NCBI RefSeq assembly: GCF_039645585.1
Contig: NZ_CP147915.1
Coordinates: forward strand, 1,550,001-1,614,000
Reading direction: 5' to 3'
Length of the DNA: 64,000 bases
Source: Sulfurimonas sp. HSL-1656
Lineage (GTDB): Bacteria > Campylobacterota > Campylobacteria > Campylobacterales > Sulfurimonadaceae
Positions 28,200 to 52,536 of the stretch are shown piece after piece. The translations under genes were made by a program, and so were the position numbers. The notes beneath the pieces were generated by a model. It had not been told where the DNA came from and did no database searches. It was given only the letters and a program-made list of their open reading frames with translations. The number at the start of each line of letters is the position of its first letter. The stretch's first letter is position 1.

Positions 28200-28217
28200 T
28201 TGTCGCAGGTGCGACAA
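28200..28217. promoter_or_regulatory. NifA-type upstream activator palindrome
   Basis: TTGTCGCA-GG-TGCGACAA is a perfect palindrome and contains TGT-N10-ACA, the known NifA upstream activating sequence. It lies about 225 bases upstream of the nifH -24 element, within looping distance. Two more TTGTCGCA half sites lie at 28080-28087 and 28179-28186. No nifA gene is in the window, so the binding protein must be encoded elsewhere. Confidence 0.65.
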
Positions 28218-28253: not shown

Positions 28254-29762
28254 TTAAAAATTATTTTTAAAATGAAAGACGGTGAGATTGGTGCGGCGGA
28301 AGCCGCGGCGGGTGTAGAAGTTATGGGCGTTTTCATTGTCGATATCCGCGGCAAGCTGAATCCGTTTGTAGCCGTATGACTGTGCCATAAAGCGCATTTT
28401 GTTGATGAGCCGGCTGCCCACCCCCATCTTGCGGTACTCCTGGCGGACGACCAGGTCTTCGATCTGGCCGACATAGTCGCCTTCGGCACTGGAGATGAGG
28501 CGCTGCATCGTCAGCATCCCGACCACTTTCCCCTCGTGCCGCGCGACGAGCAGGTCGGTACCCTCATGGCCGTAGAGTTTCGTAATCCCGGAGAGCTGCT
28601 TGTCGAAGTCGATCTCGAAATCCTGCTCGATGGCGAAGAGCACCCCCAGCAGTCCGGCCATGTGCGGCAGATCCTCCTCCGTGGCAGCCTCGATAGTGAT
28701 GCCTGTCTTCATATTGATGTCGCAGATCTCCGGGTGGAGCACTTCGATGACCAGTTTCGCATGCTCATTGAGCGGGTTGTCACCGATATAGAGGGAGTTC
28801 AGGCTCTTCATGTTCGCCAGCTCCTCCGGCAGGTCGACAATGGCGTTGCCGTCGATATCGAGTTCGTACAGCTCCGTATAGCGGCTGATCGTCTCCGGCA
28901 CGTCGGCAATCGCGTTGGAGGAGTAGCACAGTGACCCCAGGGAGGTCGATGGCAGCATCGGAAACGCCGTCAGCCCGCAGCCGTCACAGGAGAAGGCGCG
29001 AAGATAGGGGGCGAAATCATCCGCAATTTGCAGTGATGAAAGCGCGTTGTCGTCCAGCGTCAGCACTTCAAGCTCCTCCAACCCGTGCAGCGTCACCTCC
29101 TTGATGCGGTTCGAGGCGAGGTTGACCGATTCGACCCCGAGGGTGAAAAAGGCTTTGTCGATCGTTTCGATACGGTTGTCCGAGAGCTCCAGTTCCAACA
29201 GCGAACTGAGGTATGTCGCCTCCGGGGGGATCCTTGTGATCAGGTTCCCCTCCAGGTTCAGCCGCTCGACCGACGTGAGCTGGGCCAGCATGGCGGCAAT
29301 ATCTTTAATGTAATTGCCGGCGAGGTTGAGGGTGCGCAGCTCATTGGGAACGCTCAGGCAGTTGTCGAAGCCCTCGAGCACGTTGCCGCTGAGATCAAGC
29401 ACACGCAGCATCGTGAAACGGACCAGCTCACTGACGGCGCTGATACGGTTGCCGCTGAGGTTGAGTGAACGGATCGGCAGTGCCCCCAACAGTGCCGGGA
29501 CGGCCGTGAAGGCGTTACGACGAAGGTCCACGTTGCTCAGTCTCATCATCGACGCCATGGACTCGGGCAGCACGGAAAGTTTGTTGTTGCCCAGGTTGAG
29601 CGCGACCAGTTCGGTGAGCAGGCCGAAACTCTCGGGCAGACTCTGCAGCGCGCGGTTGCTCAGATCGAGACGTTTCACCTCGGCAGGCGTTTTGACTTCC
29701 GGTACGATGGCCCGCTGCGCCATCAGCCAGGCACGCAGGGACTCCCATTGCGGTTCGGACAT
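28254..29762 (-). CDS. leucine-rich-repeat / GNAT acetyltransferase fusion
   Basis: 502 residues in two parts. From about residue 28 to 335 there are some twelve leucine-rich repeats (LTELVALNLGNNKLSVLPES, IRSLNLSGNRISAV, LRVLDLSGNVLEGF, VERLNLEGNLITRIP and others), giving a curved binding surface. From about 352 to 500 a GNAT N-acetyltransferase domain carries the acetyl-CoA motif VRQEYRKMGVGSRLI and the C-terminal AHNFYTRRGFRR. It is the last gene of the unit that begins with nifB, 2 bases after the 88-aa gene. A protein-modifying acetylase whose target is chosen by the repeats is a reasonable guess; the target is unknown. Confidence 0.88.
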   Translation of the reverse strand: MSEPQWESLRAWLMAQRAIVPEVKTPAEVKRLDLSNRALQSLPESFGLLTELVALNLGNNKLSVLPESMASMMRLSNVDLRRNAFTAVPALLGALPIRSLNLSGNRISAVSELVRFTMLRVLDLSGNVLEGFDNCLSVPNELRTLNLAGNYIKDIAAMLAQLTSVERLNLEGNLITRIPPEATYLSSLLELELSDNRIETIDKAFFTLGVESVNLASNRIKEVTLHGLEELEVLTLDDNALSSLQIADDFAPYLRAFSCDGCGLTAFPMLPSTSLGSLCYSSNAIADVPETISRYTELYELDIDGNAIVDLPEELANMKSLNSLYIGDNPLNEHAKLVIEVLHPEICDINMKTGITIEAATEEDLPHMAGLLGVLFAIEQDFEIDFDKQLSGITKLYGHEGTDLLVARHEGKVVGMLTMQRLISSAEGDYVGQIEDLVVRQEYRKMGVGSRLINKMRFMAQSYGYKRIQLAADIDNENAHNFYTRRGFRRTNLTVFHFKNNF

Positions 29763-47821: not shown

Positions 47822-48217
47822 TTACCCCGCCTCGTTGAGTTCTTCGGGCTCTTCTTCGACAAGTTTGCCGACACCGCGGTCTTCAACCGGGATATCCTCG
47901 CGGAATTTCTTTTTGCGGAACGACGGCGTTTTGAGCTTGCCGTTTTTTTCGCCGAGCTTGTAGATCTCTTCGTTCAGGAAATGCTCTTCGAACTCCGGGG
48001 TGAACGGCATGTCCCACGTGATCGTACCGATGCTCGGGCAGATCGCGGCGCATTGCGGGTCATCATAGATCCCGACGCACTCGACACACTTTTCAGGCTG
48101 GACATAGTAGCGGCTCTCACCGGTAGGGTTGTCCGAATCGTCTACGATAGCGTTGACCGGACAGACTTGCAGACAGGCGTCGCAGGTGATACATTTGTCA
48201 TCAATAATTACAGCCAT
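47822..48217 (-). CDS. nif-type 2[4Fe-4S] ferredoxin B
   Basis: 131 residues. The first cluster motif is C9-x2-C12-x2-C15-x3-C19P (KCITCDACLQVCPVNAI); the second is C43-x2-C46-x8-C55-x3-C59P (KCVECVGIYDDPQCAAICPS), the long-spaced form of FdxN-like ferredoxins. A 60-residue C-terminal extension, DMPFTPEFEEHFLNEE and a basic stretch, is shared with the paralogue at 48872. It probably delivers electrons to nitrogenase or to NifB. It follows nifX by 81 bases. Confidence 0.9.
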   Translation of the reverse strand: MAVIIDDKCITCDACLQVCPVNAIVDDSDNPTGESRYYVQPEKCVECVGIYDDPQCAAICPSIGTITWDMPFTPEFEEHFLNEEIYKLGEKNGKLKTPSFRKKKFREDIPVEDRGVGKLVEEEPEELNEAG

Positions 48218-48298: not shown

Positions 48299-48676
48299 TC
48301 AGGCGCTGCGCTGGGCACCTTTGTGGAAAGCGCGCAGCAGCCAGATCGGCGGCTGCGTGTTCAGCATCTCGTGGATCTGGTCGATCGCGCCTTTGAGGTC
48401 TTCCCCTTCGGCGACCTTGACGGGGTGGATCCCCGCGGCCTGGACCATCTTCGAGGCCTTCGGCCCGATCTGGGTGCAGTACATGATGTCCGCCTCCTCG
48501 ATCGTCCCGATCTTATAGTTGAGCTTCGCCACTTCCTCTTCAGGCTCATCAGAACTGTCGATGACTTTGAGCAGCGTCGCGCTCTCTTTATCGATTTCGT
48601 AAAGATGGAAAGTCTTGGACCAGCCGAAGTGCTGATCGATCTTCTCGCCCGTTGATGAAGCAAATGCAATTCTCAT
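48299..48676 (-). CDS. nifX: NifX, cofactor carrier
   Basis: 125 residues from the ATG at 48676, beginning MRIAFASSTGEKIDQHFGWS. HFG is the conserved element of the NifX/NifB-C domain, and ADIMYCTQIGPKASKMVQAA then EGEDLKGAIDQIHEML complete it. NifX carries NifB-co and FeMo-co intermediates. An upstream in-frame ATG at 48736 falls inside a hairpin and is less likely. It lies between two paralogous ferredoxins, preceded by the hairpin array. Confidence 0.9.
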   Translation of the reverse strand: MRIAFASSTGEKIDQHFGWSKTFHLYEIDKESATLLKVIDSSDEPEEEVAKLNYKIGTIEEADIMYCTQIGPKASKMVQAAGIHPVKVAEGEDLKGAIDQIHEMLNTQPPIWLLRAFHKGAQRSA

Positions 48677-48730
48677 GATGACTACCTTTTGTGTATGATA
48701 CGACTGGAAGCTTCTCGCTTCACCGTAGTC

Positions 48731-48864
48731 TTTCATGTGTCAAATACCCTCTCCCGCCGAAAAGGTGCTTGACACATGAAAGCCAATACGTGCCAAGGGC
48801 ACGTGAGCCTACTGCTGAAGTAAACTCAGCGTTAGCGTAGTGTCAGGGGCTTTGCTCCTGACAC
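48731..48864. repeat. array of hairpins between ferredoxin A and nifX
   Basis: Four inverted repeats follow one another in 134 bases: TTTCATGTGTCAA with TTGACACATGAAA (48731-48743 / 48769-48781, perfect 13-base arms); ACGTGCC-AAG-GGCACGT (48788-48804, perfect); GCTGA/TCAGC (48814-48830); and GTGTCAGGGGC-TTT-GCTCCTGACAC (48840-48864, one wobble). The first and last share the core TGTCA/TGACA. There is no gene here. It may be a structured mRNA region separating the ferredoxin from nifX, or a repeat element. Confidence 0.75.
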
Positions 48865-48871
48865 GTACAAA

Positions 48872-49264
48872 TTAAAATGAATCGGCGACGTTGGCATGGG
48901 CTTCGCGTGCATCCATACCGATCTCGTCCATGAACTTCTGCTCCTTGACGGATGGAAGCATCAGGCCTTTTTTCTTGTGTTCGCGGATCTTGTAGGTACC
49001 GTCTTCGTTTCCTTTGGCGTAGTACTCTTCGAAGTCAACCGTGAACGGCATATCCCATACGATGGAACCCTCAGTCGGGCACGCTTCCGCACAACGCGGT
49101 GTATCCGCATGACCGACACACTCGACACAGGTCTCCGGCTTCACATAGAAGCGCTCGTCGTCATAAGGGTTCTTTTCGTCACCGTTGCTCAGAATTGCCG
49201 CGACCGGACACTCCGGTGCACATGCGTCACAGTTGATGCACTCATCCGTAATCATTACTGCCAT
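48872..49264 (-). CDS. nif-type 2[4Fe-4S] ferredoxin A
   Basis: 130 residues. ECINCDACAPECPVAAI is the first cluster site and TCVECVGHADTPRCAEACPT the long-spaced second, as in FdxN-like ferredoxins. It shares the DMPFTVDFEEYY segment and the basic extension with ferredoxin B at 47822, so the two are duplicates around nifX. It is the first gene of its transcript, with a sigma-54 element just upstream inside the end of the TOBE gene. Electron donor to nitrogenase or to cofactor synthesis. Confidence 0.92.
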   Translation of the reverse strand: MAVMITDECINCDACAPECPVAAILSNGDEKNPYDDERFYVKPETCVECVGHADTPRCAEACPTEGSIVWDMPFTVDFEEYYAKGNEDGTYKIREHKKKGLMLPSVKEQKFMDEIGMDAREAHANVADSF

Positions 49265-49291
49265 TTGTTTCTCCTGTAAAAAGTATGCTTA

Positions 49292-49741
49292 TCAGTTTGC
49301 AACTTTCGTTCCCGAACGCTTCTTGAAACTCTCCACTGTCATCGGGACCACATCGGGCTCCAGGTGGATATCCACGCCGCGCAGCAGCATCGTCGCCCTG
49401 CACCCCACTTCGAGGCCGAGCTCCCGGCATGCGTTTTCCGTGATCAGCGAAACCACCGTCCCGATATCGCTCTCGAAGGTCAGTTCGCAGAGCGAGTCTT
49501 TGCTGCGGATCTTCAGGAGCGTACCCGGAATGCGGTTTTCAATGGAGACCTTGCCCGGACACTCCTTGCTGATACAGACCGAAGCCTCCTGGAAACTGAA
49601 GAGGACCTTTTCACCCACCCCGGCCCAAAGCGGTGTCTTTGTTTTGATTAGACGGACCTGCGTGTCATTGCACTGCAGGGTGATATAGGTGACGATGTCC
49701 GTCTGTTCGATCTCGGTAACGACTGCGGCGATCTTGTTCAT
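49292..49741 (-). CDS. double-TOBE (Mop-like) molybdate-binding protein
   Basis: 149 residues arranged as two TOBE/Mop-like beta domains, about 1-65 (VVTEIEQTDIVTYITLQCND) and 70-140 (IPGTLLKIRSKDSLCELTFE ... TENACRELGLEVGCRATMLL). Such di-Mop domains bind molybdate or tungstate oxyanions for storage or sensing. Here it would serve molybdenum supply to FeMo-cofactor. It lies 10 bases after the HicB-Sel1-NifU gene. Whether it only stores or also regulates is not shown; there is no DNA-binding domain. Confidence 0.85.
   Translation of the reverse strand: MNKIAAVVTEIEQTDIVTYITLQCNDTQVRLIKTKTPLWAGVGEKVLFSFQEASVCISKECPGKVSIENRIPGTLLKIRSKDSLCELTFESDIGTVVSLITENACRELGLEVGCRATMLLRGVDIHLEPDVVPMTVESFKKRSGTKVAN
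49299..49313 (-). promoter_or_regulatory. sigma-54 promoter of ferredoxin A
   Basis: The minus strand reads GGGAACGAAAGTTGC followed by A, with GG and GC ten bases apart and the same GGAAC start as the nifH element. It lies inside the last codons of the TOBE gene. The predicted start near 49287 gives a leader of about 23 bases. Confidence 0.65.
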
Positions 49742-49751
49742 CCTCTTCCCC

Positions 49752-50651
49752 TTACATCAGGTAAAGGACGACATTTTTGTCGATCAGCTCCTCGAAAGCG
49801 TCGAGCAGCATATCCGCTGTCGACGTTGAACCGAGGTGACAGCCCGAACAGGCACCAAGGTAGTTCAACCAGATCTGCGGGGTCTCGCCCGGAAGGTAAT
49901 TGAGCAGCTCGATCCCGCCGCTGTCGGCTTCGAGGGTCGGGCGGATCTTCTGGTCGATCACCTGCATCACCAGCGTGATCTGCTTTTCCACCGGCAGGCT
50001 GCGGAACGGTTCGTTGCGCAGGGTCGCCAGCTCTTTGTTGCTGACATAGGTGACGACTTCCTGTGCCCGTACATTGTTATTGTGCGCGGCGGTAATCAGG
50101 TAGCGCATCGCTTCGGCCTTCTGCCCCTCTTCTTTGAGGAGCATGCCCGCTTTGAACTGGGCGTCGACATGGCCGATATCGGCGGCGGCTCTGTAGTACT
50201 GCAGCGCCCCTTTGGCATCGGGCGTACCGTCGATCCCTTTCTCATGGATCTGCGCCAGGCTCATCATCGCATGCATATTGCCGCGCTCCGCCGCTTTGGC
50301 AAACCACGTTTTTGCCGCTTCGATGTCGCGGCCGCACCCTTTACCCTGCATCGCCATGACCCCCAGGTTCACCATGGCGTTGGCATCCGCCTTTGCCGCC
50401 GAATCGACAAAGAGGTCGTAGGCCTCTTTATACTGTTTGGCCTCGTAGGCGCTCACGCCCGCTTCGAATGTAGTCATTTTCTGCTCCTCCTGATTTTGAA
50501 AATAGGCTTCGAGCCGTTCATACGCATCCTCTTCGGCCTCCTCGAAGGAGTCGCCGATCCCTTTGATCTCCGGGAAATCGACGAACTGGGCGACGCAACC
50601 GTCCCCCTCCTCGTTGGAAAAACCGAAATAATCGAGTGCATACTTTTTCAT
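49752..50651 (-). CDS. HicB-like / Sel1-repeat / NifU C-terminal domain fusion
   Basis: 299 residues in three parts. Residues 1-52 (DYFGFSNEEGDGCVAQFVDF ... GDSFEEAEEDAYERL) look like a HicB-type fold. Residues about 60-215 are Sel1-like repeats (AMVNLGVMAMQGKGCGRDIE, AMMSLAQIHEKGIDGTPDAK). The end is a NifU scaffold domain with LGACSGCHLGSTSTADMLLD, the two-cysteine cluster site. Methionine 59 (ATG 50477, with AGGAGCAGAAA before it) is a second plausible start, giving a Sel1-NifU protein. Iron-sulfur delivery to nitrogenase is inferred from the NifU domain and the context. A sigma-54 element is at 50664-50678. Confidence 0.88.
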   Translation of the reverse strand: MKKYALDYFGFSNEEGDGCVAQFVDFPEIKGIGDSFEEAEEDAYERLEAYFQNQEEQKMTTFEAGVSAYEAKQYKEAYDLFVDSAAKADANAMVNLGVMAMQGKGCGRDIEAAKTWFAKAAERGNMHAMMSLAQIHEKGIDGTPDAKGALQYYRAAADIGHVDAQFKAGMLLKEEGQKAEAMRYLITAAHNNNVRAQEVVTYVSNKELATLRNEPFRSLPVEKQITLVMQVIDQKIRPTLEADSGGIELLNYLPGETPQIWLNYLGACSGCHLGSTSTADMLLDAFEELIDKNVVLYLM

Positions 50652-50663
50652 ACCCGGCCTTGT

Positions 50664-50678
50664 GCAAAGAACGTTCCA
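50664..50678 (-). promoter_or_regulatory. sigma-54 promoter toward the HicB-Sel1-NifU gene
   Basis: The minus strand reads TGGAACGTTCTTTGC followed by A, matching TGGCACG-N4-TTGCA closely. The expected transcription start is near 50652, directly beside the ATG at 50651, so either the message is almost leaderless or the main start is the ATG at 50477. Confidence 0.75.
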
Positions 50679-50683
50679 GACAG

Positions 50684-50698
50684 TGGAACACTTTTTGC
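50684..50698 (+). promoter_or_regulatory. sigma-54 promoter toward the NifX-like gene at 50731
   Basis: TGGAACACTTTTTGC followed by AA has the exact -24/-12 spacing. The predicted start near 50710 lies about 21 bases before the ATG at 50731. Its -24 element begins only five bases from that of the opposite promoter at 50664-50678, so the two point away from each other. Confidence 0.8.
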
Positions 50699-50730
50699 AA
50701 ACATAAGCAAAAATCATCTAAGGAGGCGAC

Positions 50731-51126
50731 ATGATCGCTATACCGGTGGACAAGGCACAGATGGATGCCAAGTCATCGACACTTTTTGGAAATGTTCAGG
50801 CATTCGCCCTATATAATAATGATGAAAAGGCGTTTCACTTCATTCCGAACGAGGGCAAAGGAGACGGCATCATGACTGCCAACCTGCTTGCAGACCATTC
50901 CGTCACTTCTGTTGTCTACTCTTTTATGGGGGACGGTCCATTCGGGATCCTGAACCGCGAGGGGGTCAACGTCTACTACCTCGGTAAAGAGCCGATGTCG
51001 CTCATGAGCATCATCGAGGGGCTGGACAAAGAAAACTTCGTCAAGGTCGACGCTGCGAATGCACAGACCTACCTTGACCCGGGCACGGCATCGGGAACGT
51101 GCGGATGCGGATGCAGCCATGACTGA
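50731..51126 (+). CDS. NifX/NifB-C family protein with CGCGC tail
   Basis: 131 residues, beginning MIAIPVDKAQMDAKSSTLFG and containing FALYNNDEKAFHFIPNEGKG and GDGPFGILNREGVNVYYLGK, in the layout of the dinitrogenase iron-molybdenum cofactor domain. The C terminus is GTCGCGCSHD, an unusual four-cysteine patch. AAGGAGGCGAC precedes the ATG. It begins a four-gene sigma-54 transcript and overlaps the next gene by eight bases. A cofactor or iron-sulfur carrier role is inferred. Confidence 0.8.
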   Translation: MIAIPVDKAQMDAKSSTLFGNVQAFALYNNDEKAFHFIPNEGKGDGIMTANLLADHSVTSVVYSFMGDGPFGILNREGVNVYYLGKEPMSLMSIIEGLDKENFVKVDAANAQTYLDPGTASGTCGCGCSHD

Positions 51127-51364
51127 GATTATCACCAAAGAGATGCATGAGATCCGCGGCCTGATCGCACAGACTGTCGCCAAGCGCAATGCGCTCAAGG
51201 CGGAGATGCAGGAGTGGTACGACCGCTTCCCCAACGAACGCTTCGGCAAGTTCAAGGACCTGATCGCCGTTGACGGCGTGCTCTCGCAGCTCGATTCACA
51301 CTACAAACAGCTCTGGGACTTCCACAATGCCCGCACGGATAGCGTGCAGAAAAAGGCAATGTAA
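51119..51364 (+). CDS. 81-aa helical protein, nif-associated
   Basis: ATG 51119 overlaps the previous stop by eight bases. The product (MTEIITKEMHEIRGLIAQTV ...) is charged and helical with RFPNERFGKFKDLIAVDGVL in the centre and no cysteine. I do not recognise the family. Translational coupling with a NifX-like protein and a sigma-54 promoter upstream place it in the nif regulon. A small assembly or chaperone role is only a possibility. Confidence 0.78.
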   Translation: MTEIITKEMHEIRGLIAQTVAKRNALKAEMQEWYDRFPNERFGKFKDLIAVDGVLSQLDSHYKQLWDFHNARTDSVQKKAM

Positions 51365-51367
51365 GGG

Positions 51368-52012
51368 ATGCCGGAGTACAGCAAGGCCAGTAAGGCCCGC
51401 GTGCCTGATGAGACCTCTGGGTACAGTGAAAAAGGGCGGCTGACAGCCGCCGGTGCGCAGATCGACCGCTACCGGATCATCCTGGACAAGGACAATTTCC
51501 AGCCCGAAGAACCCCACTGGCGGCGTATCAGCAAGAATACCGTCAGCCTTTTCCAGGTCCTGATCGACCAGGACCTCAAAGAGCTTGTCATGGTGCTCGA
51601 ACACTACCCCCGCTACATTGAGTGGGTGTGTGAACACTTCCGCTATGCCTACAGCTACAGCGAGAACGAAGCGAGCATCGACGCCGCTTCCCGGCTCCTG
51701 GAACTTGGGGAGCCCTTCTTCACGAAACAGTTCGTCCGCAACCTCGTCCGCAAGCTCCCGCGCCTCGATACGATGGAGCTCGAAAGGCTCAAAACGTTCG
51801 CCGAAGCGGTTGCGGCACACCACGGGCAGTGGCACCCCATCATTACGAACCACTACTGCGACGCCATCGGAGAGAGCGTCGAATCCCGGAAACTGCATCC
51901 GCTGCAGCGCCTGGCCATCACCGGCAAGATCGCGAACATTACACGGATCGAAACCTTCGAGTACGACGCCGAAGACCGCGACGCCGTCCTCGATATCCCC
52001 TACATGAATTGA
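51368..52012 (+). CDS. 214-aa hypothetical protein, nif-associated
   Basis: 214 residues starting three bases after the 81-aa gene. It begins MPEYSKASKARVPDETSGYS and is mainly helical, with LFQVLIDQDLKELVMVLEHY, DTMELERLKTFAEAVAAHHG and a His-containing QWHPIITNHYCDAI stretch. It has two cysteines (WVCEHF, HYCDAI) and several histidines, so metal binding is conceivable. No domain recognised. Third gene of the transcript from 50684. Confidence 0.78.
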   Translation: MPEYSKASKARVPDETSGYSEKGRLTAAGAQIDRYRIILDKDNFQPEEPHWRRISKNTVSLFQVLIDQDLKELVMVLEHYPRYIEWVCEHFRYAYSYSENEASIDAASRLLELGEPFFTKQFVRNLVRKLPRLDTMELERLKTFAEAVAAHHGQWHPIITNHYCDAIGESVESRKLHPLQRLAITGKIANITRIETFEYDAEDRDAVLDIPYMN

Positions 52013-52032
52013 ATTGAACAGAAAGGTTACCT

Positions 52033-52536
52033 ATGGATAAAGAAACCCTCAAAGAAGAACTGCTTAAACACGCGCGCAACGCTTTTGAAACCGCTTCGAC
52101 CCTGCACGAGAACGAGCGTATCGAAGTCTACCTGCACGACGGTGTCGCCAAAACCTCGGATGTCCTCGACGACAGCGACGAAATCCTCTACGGCGACAAC
52201 CGGGTGCTGTGCTACCAGATCCAGGGGTACGACTACCTCGAAGGCGAGATCAAAACCTGGATCGACTATGCCCGGGTCATTCAGGAACCCACCGATGAGA
52301 TGCCGCTGCCCGAACCCACCGACATCGAAAAATCGATCCGCGAGCTTATCGACACGCTGGCGAAATCCAAAGGGGTAAGCCGTGATGATATCAGCTCCTT
52401 CGAGGTCTTCGCCAACCTGCCGATGGACCTGCTGGGTTCTATCGAACAGCAGATCATCGAATACTGGTGGAGTGCGGAAGAGGAAGAAAACGGCAAGAAA
52501 CTCGCCCTGGCGCAGATCGAAGAGGCATTGGCCTAA
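52033..52536 (+). CDS. 167-aa hypothetical protein, nif-associated
   Basis: 167 residues with GAAAGGTTACCT before ATG 52033. It starts MDKETLKEELLKHARNAFET, has a beta-rich centre (ERIEVYLHDGVAKTSDVLDD, LYGDNRVLCYQIQGYD) and ends helical (LGSIEQQIIEYWWSAEEEEN). It is acidic with one cysteine. It is the last gene of the unit; two hairpins follow. No family recognised. Confidence 0.78.
   Translation: MDKETLKEELLKHARNAFETASTLHENERIEVYLHDGVAKTSDVLDDSDEILYGDNRVLCYQIQGYDYLEGEIKTWIDYARVIQEPTDEMPLPEPTDIEKSIRELIDTLAKSKGVSRDDISSFEVFANLPMDLLGSIEQQIIEYWWSAEEEENGKKLALAQIEEALA

Follow-up and report, generated by a model that had tools for sequence, protein, structure and literature searches.

The window analysed in this work is a stretch of 64,000 nucleotides from Sulfurimonas sp. 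HSL-1656, whose genome is a single contig of 2.56 Mb; unless stated otherwise, positions are given within this window. A gene coding for a protein with HicB-like, Sel1 and Nfu parts lies on its minus strand and runs from the ATG at 50651 (ATG1) to the stop at 49752. The plus strand at 49752-50651 is not the gene, and the first-pass annotation had given no strand. The open frame continues for 22 codons upstream of ATG1, and this extension is poorly conserved and overlaps the promoter. The features of the locus, including the adjoining genes, are collected in Table 1. The nifH gene of the same genome lies 22.7 kb from the fusion gene.

Table 1. Position, strand and basis of assignment of features at the fusion locus (positions in the window)
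Feature	Position	Strand	Basis or remark
Long form, HicB-like + four Sel1 + Nfu, 299 aa	49752..50651	(-)	
HicB-like domain, residues 1-57, beta-beta-beta-alpha	50481..50651	(-)	profile, model, superposition
Four Sel1 repeats, residues 61-190	50082..50471	(-)	PF08238 E=1.6e-13, over the Pfam cut-off; four helix pairs
Nfu / NifU C-terminal domain, residues 214-298	49758..50012	(-)	PF01106 E=3e-9, over the Pfam cut-off
C268-S-G-C271, putative cluster-binding motif	49839..49850	(-)	C-x2-C in 68/68 family members
Putative short form, Sel1-Nfu, 241 aa, from internal ATG (Met59)	49752..50477	(-)	
Internal Shine-Dalgarno-like AGGAGG	50486..50491	(-)	8 nt before the Met59 codon
Sigma-54-type promoter TGGAACGTTCTTTGCA (TGGAAC-N5-TTGCA)	50663..50678	(-)	transcription predicted to begin at about 50652, 1 nt upstream of ATG1
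Divergent sigma-54-type promoter for 50731-51126	50684..50699	(+)	
Divergent Nitro_FeMo-Co domain protein, NifX/NafY-like	50731..51126	(+)	PF02579 E=4.2e-9
TOBE/Mop-type (molybdate-binding family) protein, next downstream	49292..49741	(-)	PF03459 E=1.6e-9
Two-[4Fe-4S]-type ferredoxin	48872..49264	(-)	YfhL-family-like, below the family cut-off
NifX-like	48299..48736	(-)	TIGR02663 E=2.6e-29, just below cut-off; PF02579
Second ferredoxin	47822..48217	(-)	

The union of three domains in one 299-residue protein, proposed in the first-pass annotation, was borne out by the reading frame, by Pfam for Sel1 and the NifU C-terminal domain, and by profile and fold for the HicB-like part. The C-x2-C site it had placed in the last domain was found as well. 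The Nfu match spans 49-51 of 67 Pfam positions, an alpha-beta-beta-alpha-beta fold is predicted at residues 221-298, and the domain profile matches the solved Nfu domains 2z51, 2m5o, 1veh and 1xhj (E from 1e-5 to 3e-3). An AlphaFold2 model was built from 38 aligned family members, with a mean pLDDT of 90.8. In this model strands lie within residues 6-33, a helix at 36-57 and four helix pairs at 61-190, followed by the Nfu fold to residue 298. Sel1 proteins were the best structural matches of the whole model.

In the Pfam search at E≤1, HicB was matched neither by the window protein nor by its HicB region alone. When the HicB regions of 21 members were searched, six matched HicB_lk_antitox, all weakly (best E 0.019), and PADLOC gave one weak match among 21 members (E 0.016). 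A profile of 21 N-terminal regions found two HicB antitoxins as its top matches in the PDB (E about 0.001). The model of residues 1-58 alone had a pLDDT of 91 and was superposed on the HicB N-terminal domain 6g1c with Z 7.2 and an rmsd of 1.1 Å over 54 residues, and on 2dsy with Z 7.0 and 1.5 Å over 56 residues. Because chains of the dsRNA-binding type come next in the fold ranking (Z about 6, rmsd mostly worse), the fold alone is insufficient for the HicB call, and fold and sequence carry the case together. The window protein thus has the beta-beta-beta-alpha fold of HicB antitoxins and HicB-like proteins (6g1c, 2dsy). It differs from the antitoxins in three respects: no DNA-binding C-terminal domain of HicB was found by Pfam, and helix 36-57 leads straight into the Sel1 repeats; no HicA partner was detected in its own genome (PF07927, no match at E≤0.001; the control was positive in 7 of 14); and the HicB module is removable.

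The distribution of the protein was examined among genomes of the bacterial family. Among 151 genomes, 57 carried nifH over the curated cut-off, and the fusion family was present in 52 of these and in 8 of the 94 without nifH (Fisher p=6e-26, a value that ignores relatedness and, like the other p-values given for these related sequences, is too small). The family is missing from five nifH-bearing genomes, of which two are 99% complete; one of the eight genomes that carry the family without a full nifH has a nifH fragment. In 30 genomes nifH and the fusion gene share a contig, 1.8-68 kb apart, and in 22 draft genomes they are on different contigs. These counts rest on matches in 79/151 genomes, of which 54 strong and 6 second-clade matches were counted as family, while a 59-residue fragment (G171) and 18 apparent ordinary NifU matches were set aside; E-value and frame length, and not a tree, served to separate the family from ordinary NifU. 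At the class level, 51 of 397 genomes matched at E≤1e-20. Among named relatives, the closest found was a Sulfuricurvum MAG, with 78% identity over the protein. A second clade shares about 30% identity with the window protein, and some of its members have the same three parts; it was found chiefly in the order's other families and, within this family, in one other genus. The range of the family is given for the Campylobacterota genomes searched, with a contig scan that reaches close relatives only. At a Magnetococcales locus (L039), Sel1 similarity was seen, and the C-terminal profile had no match in its ORFs. Plasmid records covering 80% of the protein were not found; there were 141 partial matches, and the best of the ten listed covers 65%.

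For comparisons between members we used 68 sequences with E≤1e-20 in the retrieved loci (a part of all matches), deduplicated by their last 200 residues. The HicB part is present in 29 of them and absent in 38; in the remaining one (L068) a contig end truncates the gene, which was excluded from the HicB labels. On a family tree built by a quick method with SH-aLRT support, 12 gains or losses of HicB are needed, and well supported branches make no fewer than 4 of these unavoidable. In the close relatives L079 and L065, the promoter region and the start of the Sel1 part are nearly identical, and the differences lie in the HicB segment and a portion of the leader. A separate HicB-like segment was not found in the flanks of HicB-less members, many of which comprise only about 3.4 kb in all. 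One family member (L048, genome G023) has 144 aa and consists of a linker and the Nfu domain only, with no full Sel1 array.

The surroundings of the gene are also related to nitrogen fixation. All 51 loci compared have a NifX-like gene no more than 3.3 kb from the fusion; a ferredoxin gene was found within 8 kb in 35 of them and a Mop protein gene in 19. Three further plus-strand genes at 51059-52536, coding for 101, 214 and 167 aa, are kept near the fusion in 23, 14 and 24 of the 51 loci, respectively; they received no Pfam names and a single weak NCBIfam match.

The nif promoter suggested earlier for this gene was confirmed insofar as a sigma-54-type element precedes it. With the consensus that we take to be that of sigma-54 promoters, four such elements were observed in the window against 0.15 expected. 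No NifA-type TGT-N10-ACA site was found in 50300-51200 and no sigma-70-like site upstream of the gene in the scanned 49000-51300; the NifA-type pattern has 8 sites in the window in all. A perfect palindrome, TGTCGCAGGTGCGACA, lies at 28201, upstream of nifH, and fits what is presumably the consensus of the NifA upstream site. The two outward-facing promoters at 50663-50699 form an inverted repeat, which was flagged by the terminator scan too. Among the 68 members the promoter pattern finds an element in 45; it is mostly absent in clade 2. In the window's genus, the predicted transcript start lies about 1 nt before ATG1 in 5/5 members, and the long form would be nearly leaderless there. In the genus g14 (10 genes), the predicted start is mostly 13-24 nt before ATG1, with little Shine-Dalgarno signal, and in HicB-less members of the first clade it is mostly 15-40 nt before the start codon.

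An in-frame ATG stands at the HicB/Sel1 junction in 29/29 HicB-bearing members, and the residues around it are variable. HicB-less members mostly begin at the equivalent ATG. The pairing with the 16S tail, computed on the 16 bases from -20 to -5 before each Met codon, had a mean of -8.5 kcal/mol for the junction ATG and -2.2 for 294 other internal Met codons. The means were -4.0 for ATG1 and -6.6 for the starts of HicB-less members (n=39, the cut member included), and the junction site was stronger than the ATG1 site in 27 of 29 members. Judged from these signals, one gene probably yields two isoforms, with and without the HicB-like front domain.

On this evidence we read the fusion as a nif-dedicated Nfu-type carrier of an Fe-S cluster or cofactor, with a docking arm and two isoforms, and assign this reading a probability of about 0.5. 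At its C-x2-C motif, the Nfu domain would bind either a [4Fe-4S] cluster or a precursor of the cofactor, probably between two subunits. Sel1 repeats are interaction modules, and their superhelix would serve to dock clients or partners in FeMo-cofactor assembly, namely NifX, the ferredoxins and the adjoining Mop protein. Docking of clients through the repeats, an idea of the first-pass annotation, is plausible. Cluster building would be the task of NifU proper, which is encoded elsewhere, likewise downstream of a sigma-54-type promoter, and the fusion carrier would act downstream of NifU, towards FeMo-cofactor assembly. The long isoform with the HicB-like front domain, of about 33 kDa, would be made from ATG1, and the short Sel1-Nfu isoform, of about 26 kDa, from the conserved ATG inside the gene, which has a Shine-Dalgarno-like site of its own.

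The best surviving alternative, in our opinion an unlikely one, is that the same carrier is made as a single full-length protein and that the internal ATG and the purine stretch are a linker accident or a relic of the fusion. The frame is indeed open through the junction in HicB-bearing members. Moreover, the linker residues themselves favour purines, so that part of the Shine-Dalgarno signal follows from the residues and the codon-level signal is weak in clade 2 and in the window's genus, where a purine-rich stretch often arises from the residues alone. Synonymous recoding, gene by gene, gave an equally strong site with a median p of 0.23 (0.54-0.61 in 4/5 members of the window's genus and 0.23-0.96 in clade 2); for one member (L124), this test used an ATG three codons upstream of the aligned one used in the codon and pairing tests. 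The Glu-codon test likewise gave no signal in clade 2 (p 0.93) or in the three other genes of the first clade (p 0.40). Against a single product stand the invariance of the junction Met amid varying neighbours, with unrelated linkers in the two clades, and the advantage of the junction site over that of ATG1. In g14, the Glu codons at the site are GAG in 18/18 cases, against 71/220 elsewhere, and AGGAG is kept while the residue at -4 varies between Q, K and E. For Gly in clade 2, GGA is used in 14/19 codons at the site and in 49/195 elsewhere.

Another possibility, which we consider improbable, is that the protein is an adaptor or regulator of cofactor assembly and not a cluster carrier. The Nfu domain would then be a binding or sensing module, the Sel1 and HicB parts would assemble NifX, ferredoxins and NifEN, and cluster occupancy may signal the Fe status. 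The role of Sel1 repeats in interactions and the constant company of NifX-like genes, with ferredoxin genes in most loci, are in favour of such a function. However, both cysteines are present in 68/68 members, as expected for cluster or metal binding, with which sensing would still be compatible.

The first-pass annotation had suggested that the protein is a substitute scaffold, replacing NifU as the site of cluster building for nitrogenase. The Nfu domain with C-x2-C and the nif linkage would suit this role, but the fusion contains no NifU_N domain (absent from its Pfam list at E≤1; the PF01592 matches of the genome lie elsewhere), and its score against TIGR02000 was 27.8 bits, with a cut-off of 273.3. 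A profile search of the genome gave three NifU_N and four NifU C-terminal matches, and two proteins carry both ends. One is a full NifU at about 1.484 Mb, 115 kb away, which matches TIGR02000 with E=2.7e-63 over nearly the whole model. It starts roughly 30 nt past the start point predicted from a sigma-54-type element, TGGAACACCATTTGCA, and stands beside rpoN. On the sequence side, this NifU is of the kind that the first-pass annotation itself had named as refuting the scaffold role. The second full NifU follows an epsilon-type NifS, outside the window. Both cover the model and yet score below the TIGR02000 cut-off as well, with 214 and 224 bits. The earlier remark that the window holds no other nifU is therefore beside the point, since the genome has two outside it. 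The fusion family is also missing from 5/57 nifH-bearing genomes, and we regard the substitute scaffold as very improbable. A role as a stand-in for a missing NifQ was dropped, NifQ being present at 1472947. Between the NifU at 1.484 Mb and rpoN (locus L138, 16040-18836; about 1.484-1.487 Mb in the genome) lies an ORF that appears P-II-like by reading of its sequence alone, and rpoN has its own sigma-54-type element upstream.

The notion that the HicB-like stretch is an untranslated long 5' leader and only the short Sel1-Nfu protein is made is hardly credible: the site before ATG1 is weak on average and the transcript nearly leaderless in the window's genus, but the HicB part is under purifying selection, and we judge it translated for this reason (in the window's genus, dN/dS is about 0.11 for this part and 0.09 for the remainder, the values of more diverged groups resting on saturated dS), it is retained at the protein level in two deep clades, and some members, e.g. 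L041 and L040, have a good Shine-Dalgarno site before ATG1.

The two-isoform carrier can be taken one step further, in a version that we offer tentatively and hold at well below even odds. One sigma-54 transcript would give two carriers, a HicB-headed one from the nearly leaderless 5' ATG and a short one from the internal, Shine-Dalgarno-led ATG. The state of the ribosomes would set their ratio, and mixed dimers formed at the Nfu interface would tune delivery to the assembly of FeMo-cofactor. The repeated loss of the HicB module would be explained by a second start that already functions in the gene.

With NifU of the Azotobacter type, the window protein has in common the C-terminal domain with C-x2-C and the nif linkage. 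It contains only the last domain, however, with Sel1 and HicB-like parts instead of the U-type scaffold, and the central [2Fe-2S] domain that is part of NifU is missing. Nfu-type carriers such as NfuA, plant NFU2 and human NFU1 likewise have an Nfu domain joined to other parts. The N-domain of NfuA is of A-type, whereas the window protein has Sel1 repeats and a HicB-like fold and is nif-linked. A precedent for the internal start is the endolysin LysIME-EF1, for which experiments showed that an internal ATG in frame, preceded by a ribosome site, gives a shorter second product (PMC7098653); in the fusion family, by contrast, we infer the internal start from conservation. In the extended hyp operon of Nostoc, a TPR protein and a NifU-C-like protein are encoded together beside metalloenzyme maturation genes (PMC3126725). 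There the genes are separate and the context is that of hydrogenase, whereas here a single fused gene is linked to nif.

In the literature searched, in which subscription journals are thinly covered, we found no description of a HicB-Sel1-Nfu protein or of this nif-associated gene family, which runs through diazotrophic Campylobacterota. Diazotrophic Sulfurimonas strains for which 15N fixation was demonstrated are on record (PMC12029903). The fusion is a candidate for a carrier dedicated to the step between NifU and the assembly of FeMo-cofactor, which is of importance for the transfer of nitrogen fixation to plants. Nearly identical genes with and without the HicB part provide a natural comparison. 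Finally, next to nifH, at 28254-29762 on the minus strand, there is an ORF of 502 aa that begins with leucine-rich repeats and has a GNAT acetyltransferase-like C-terminal part.
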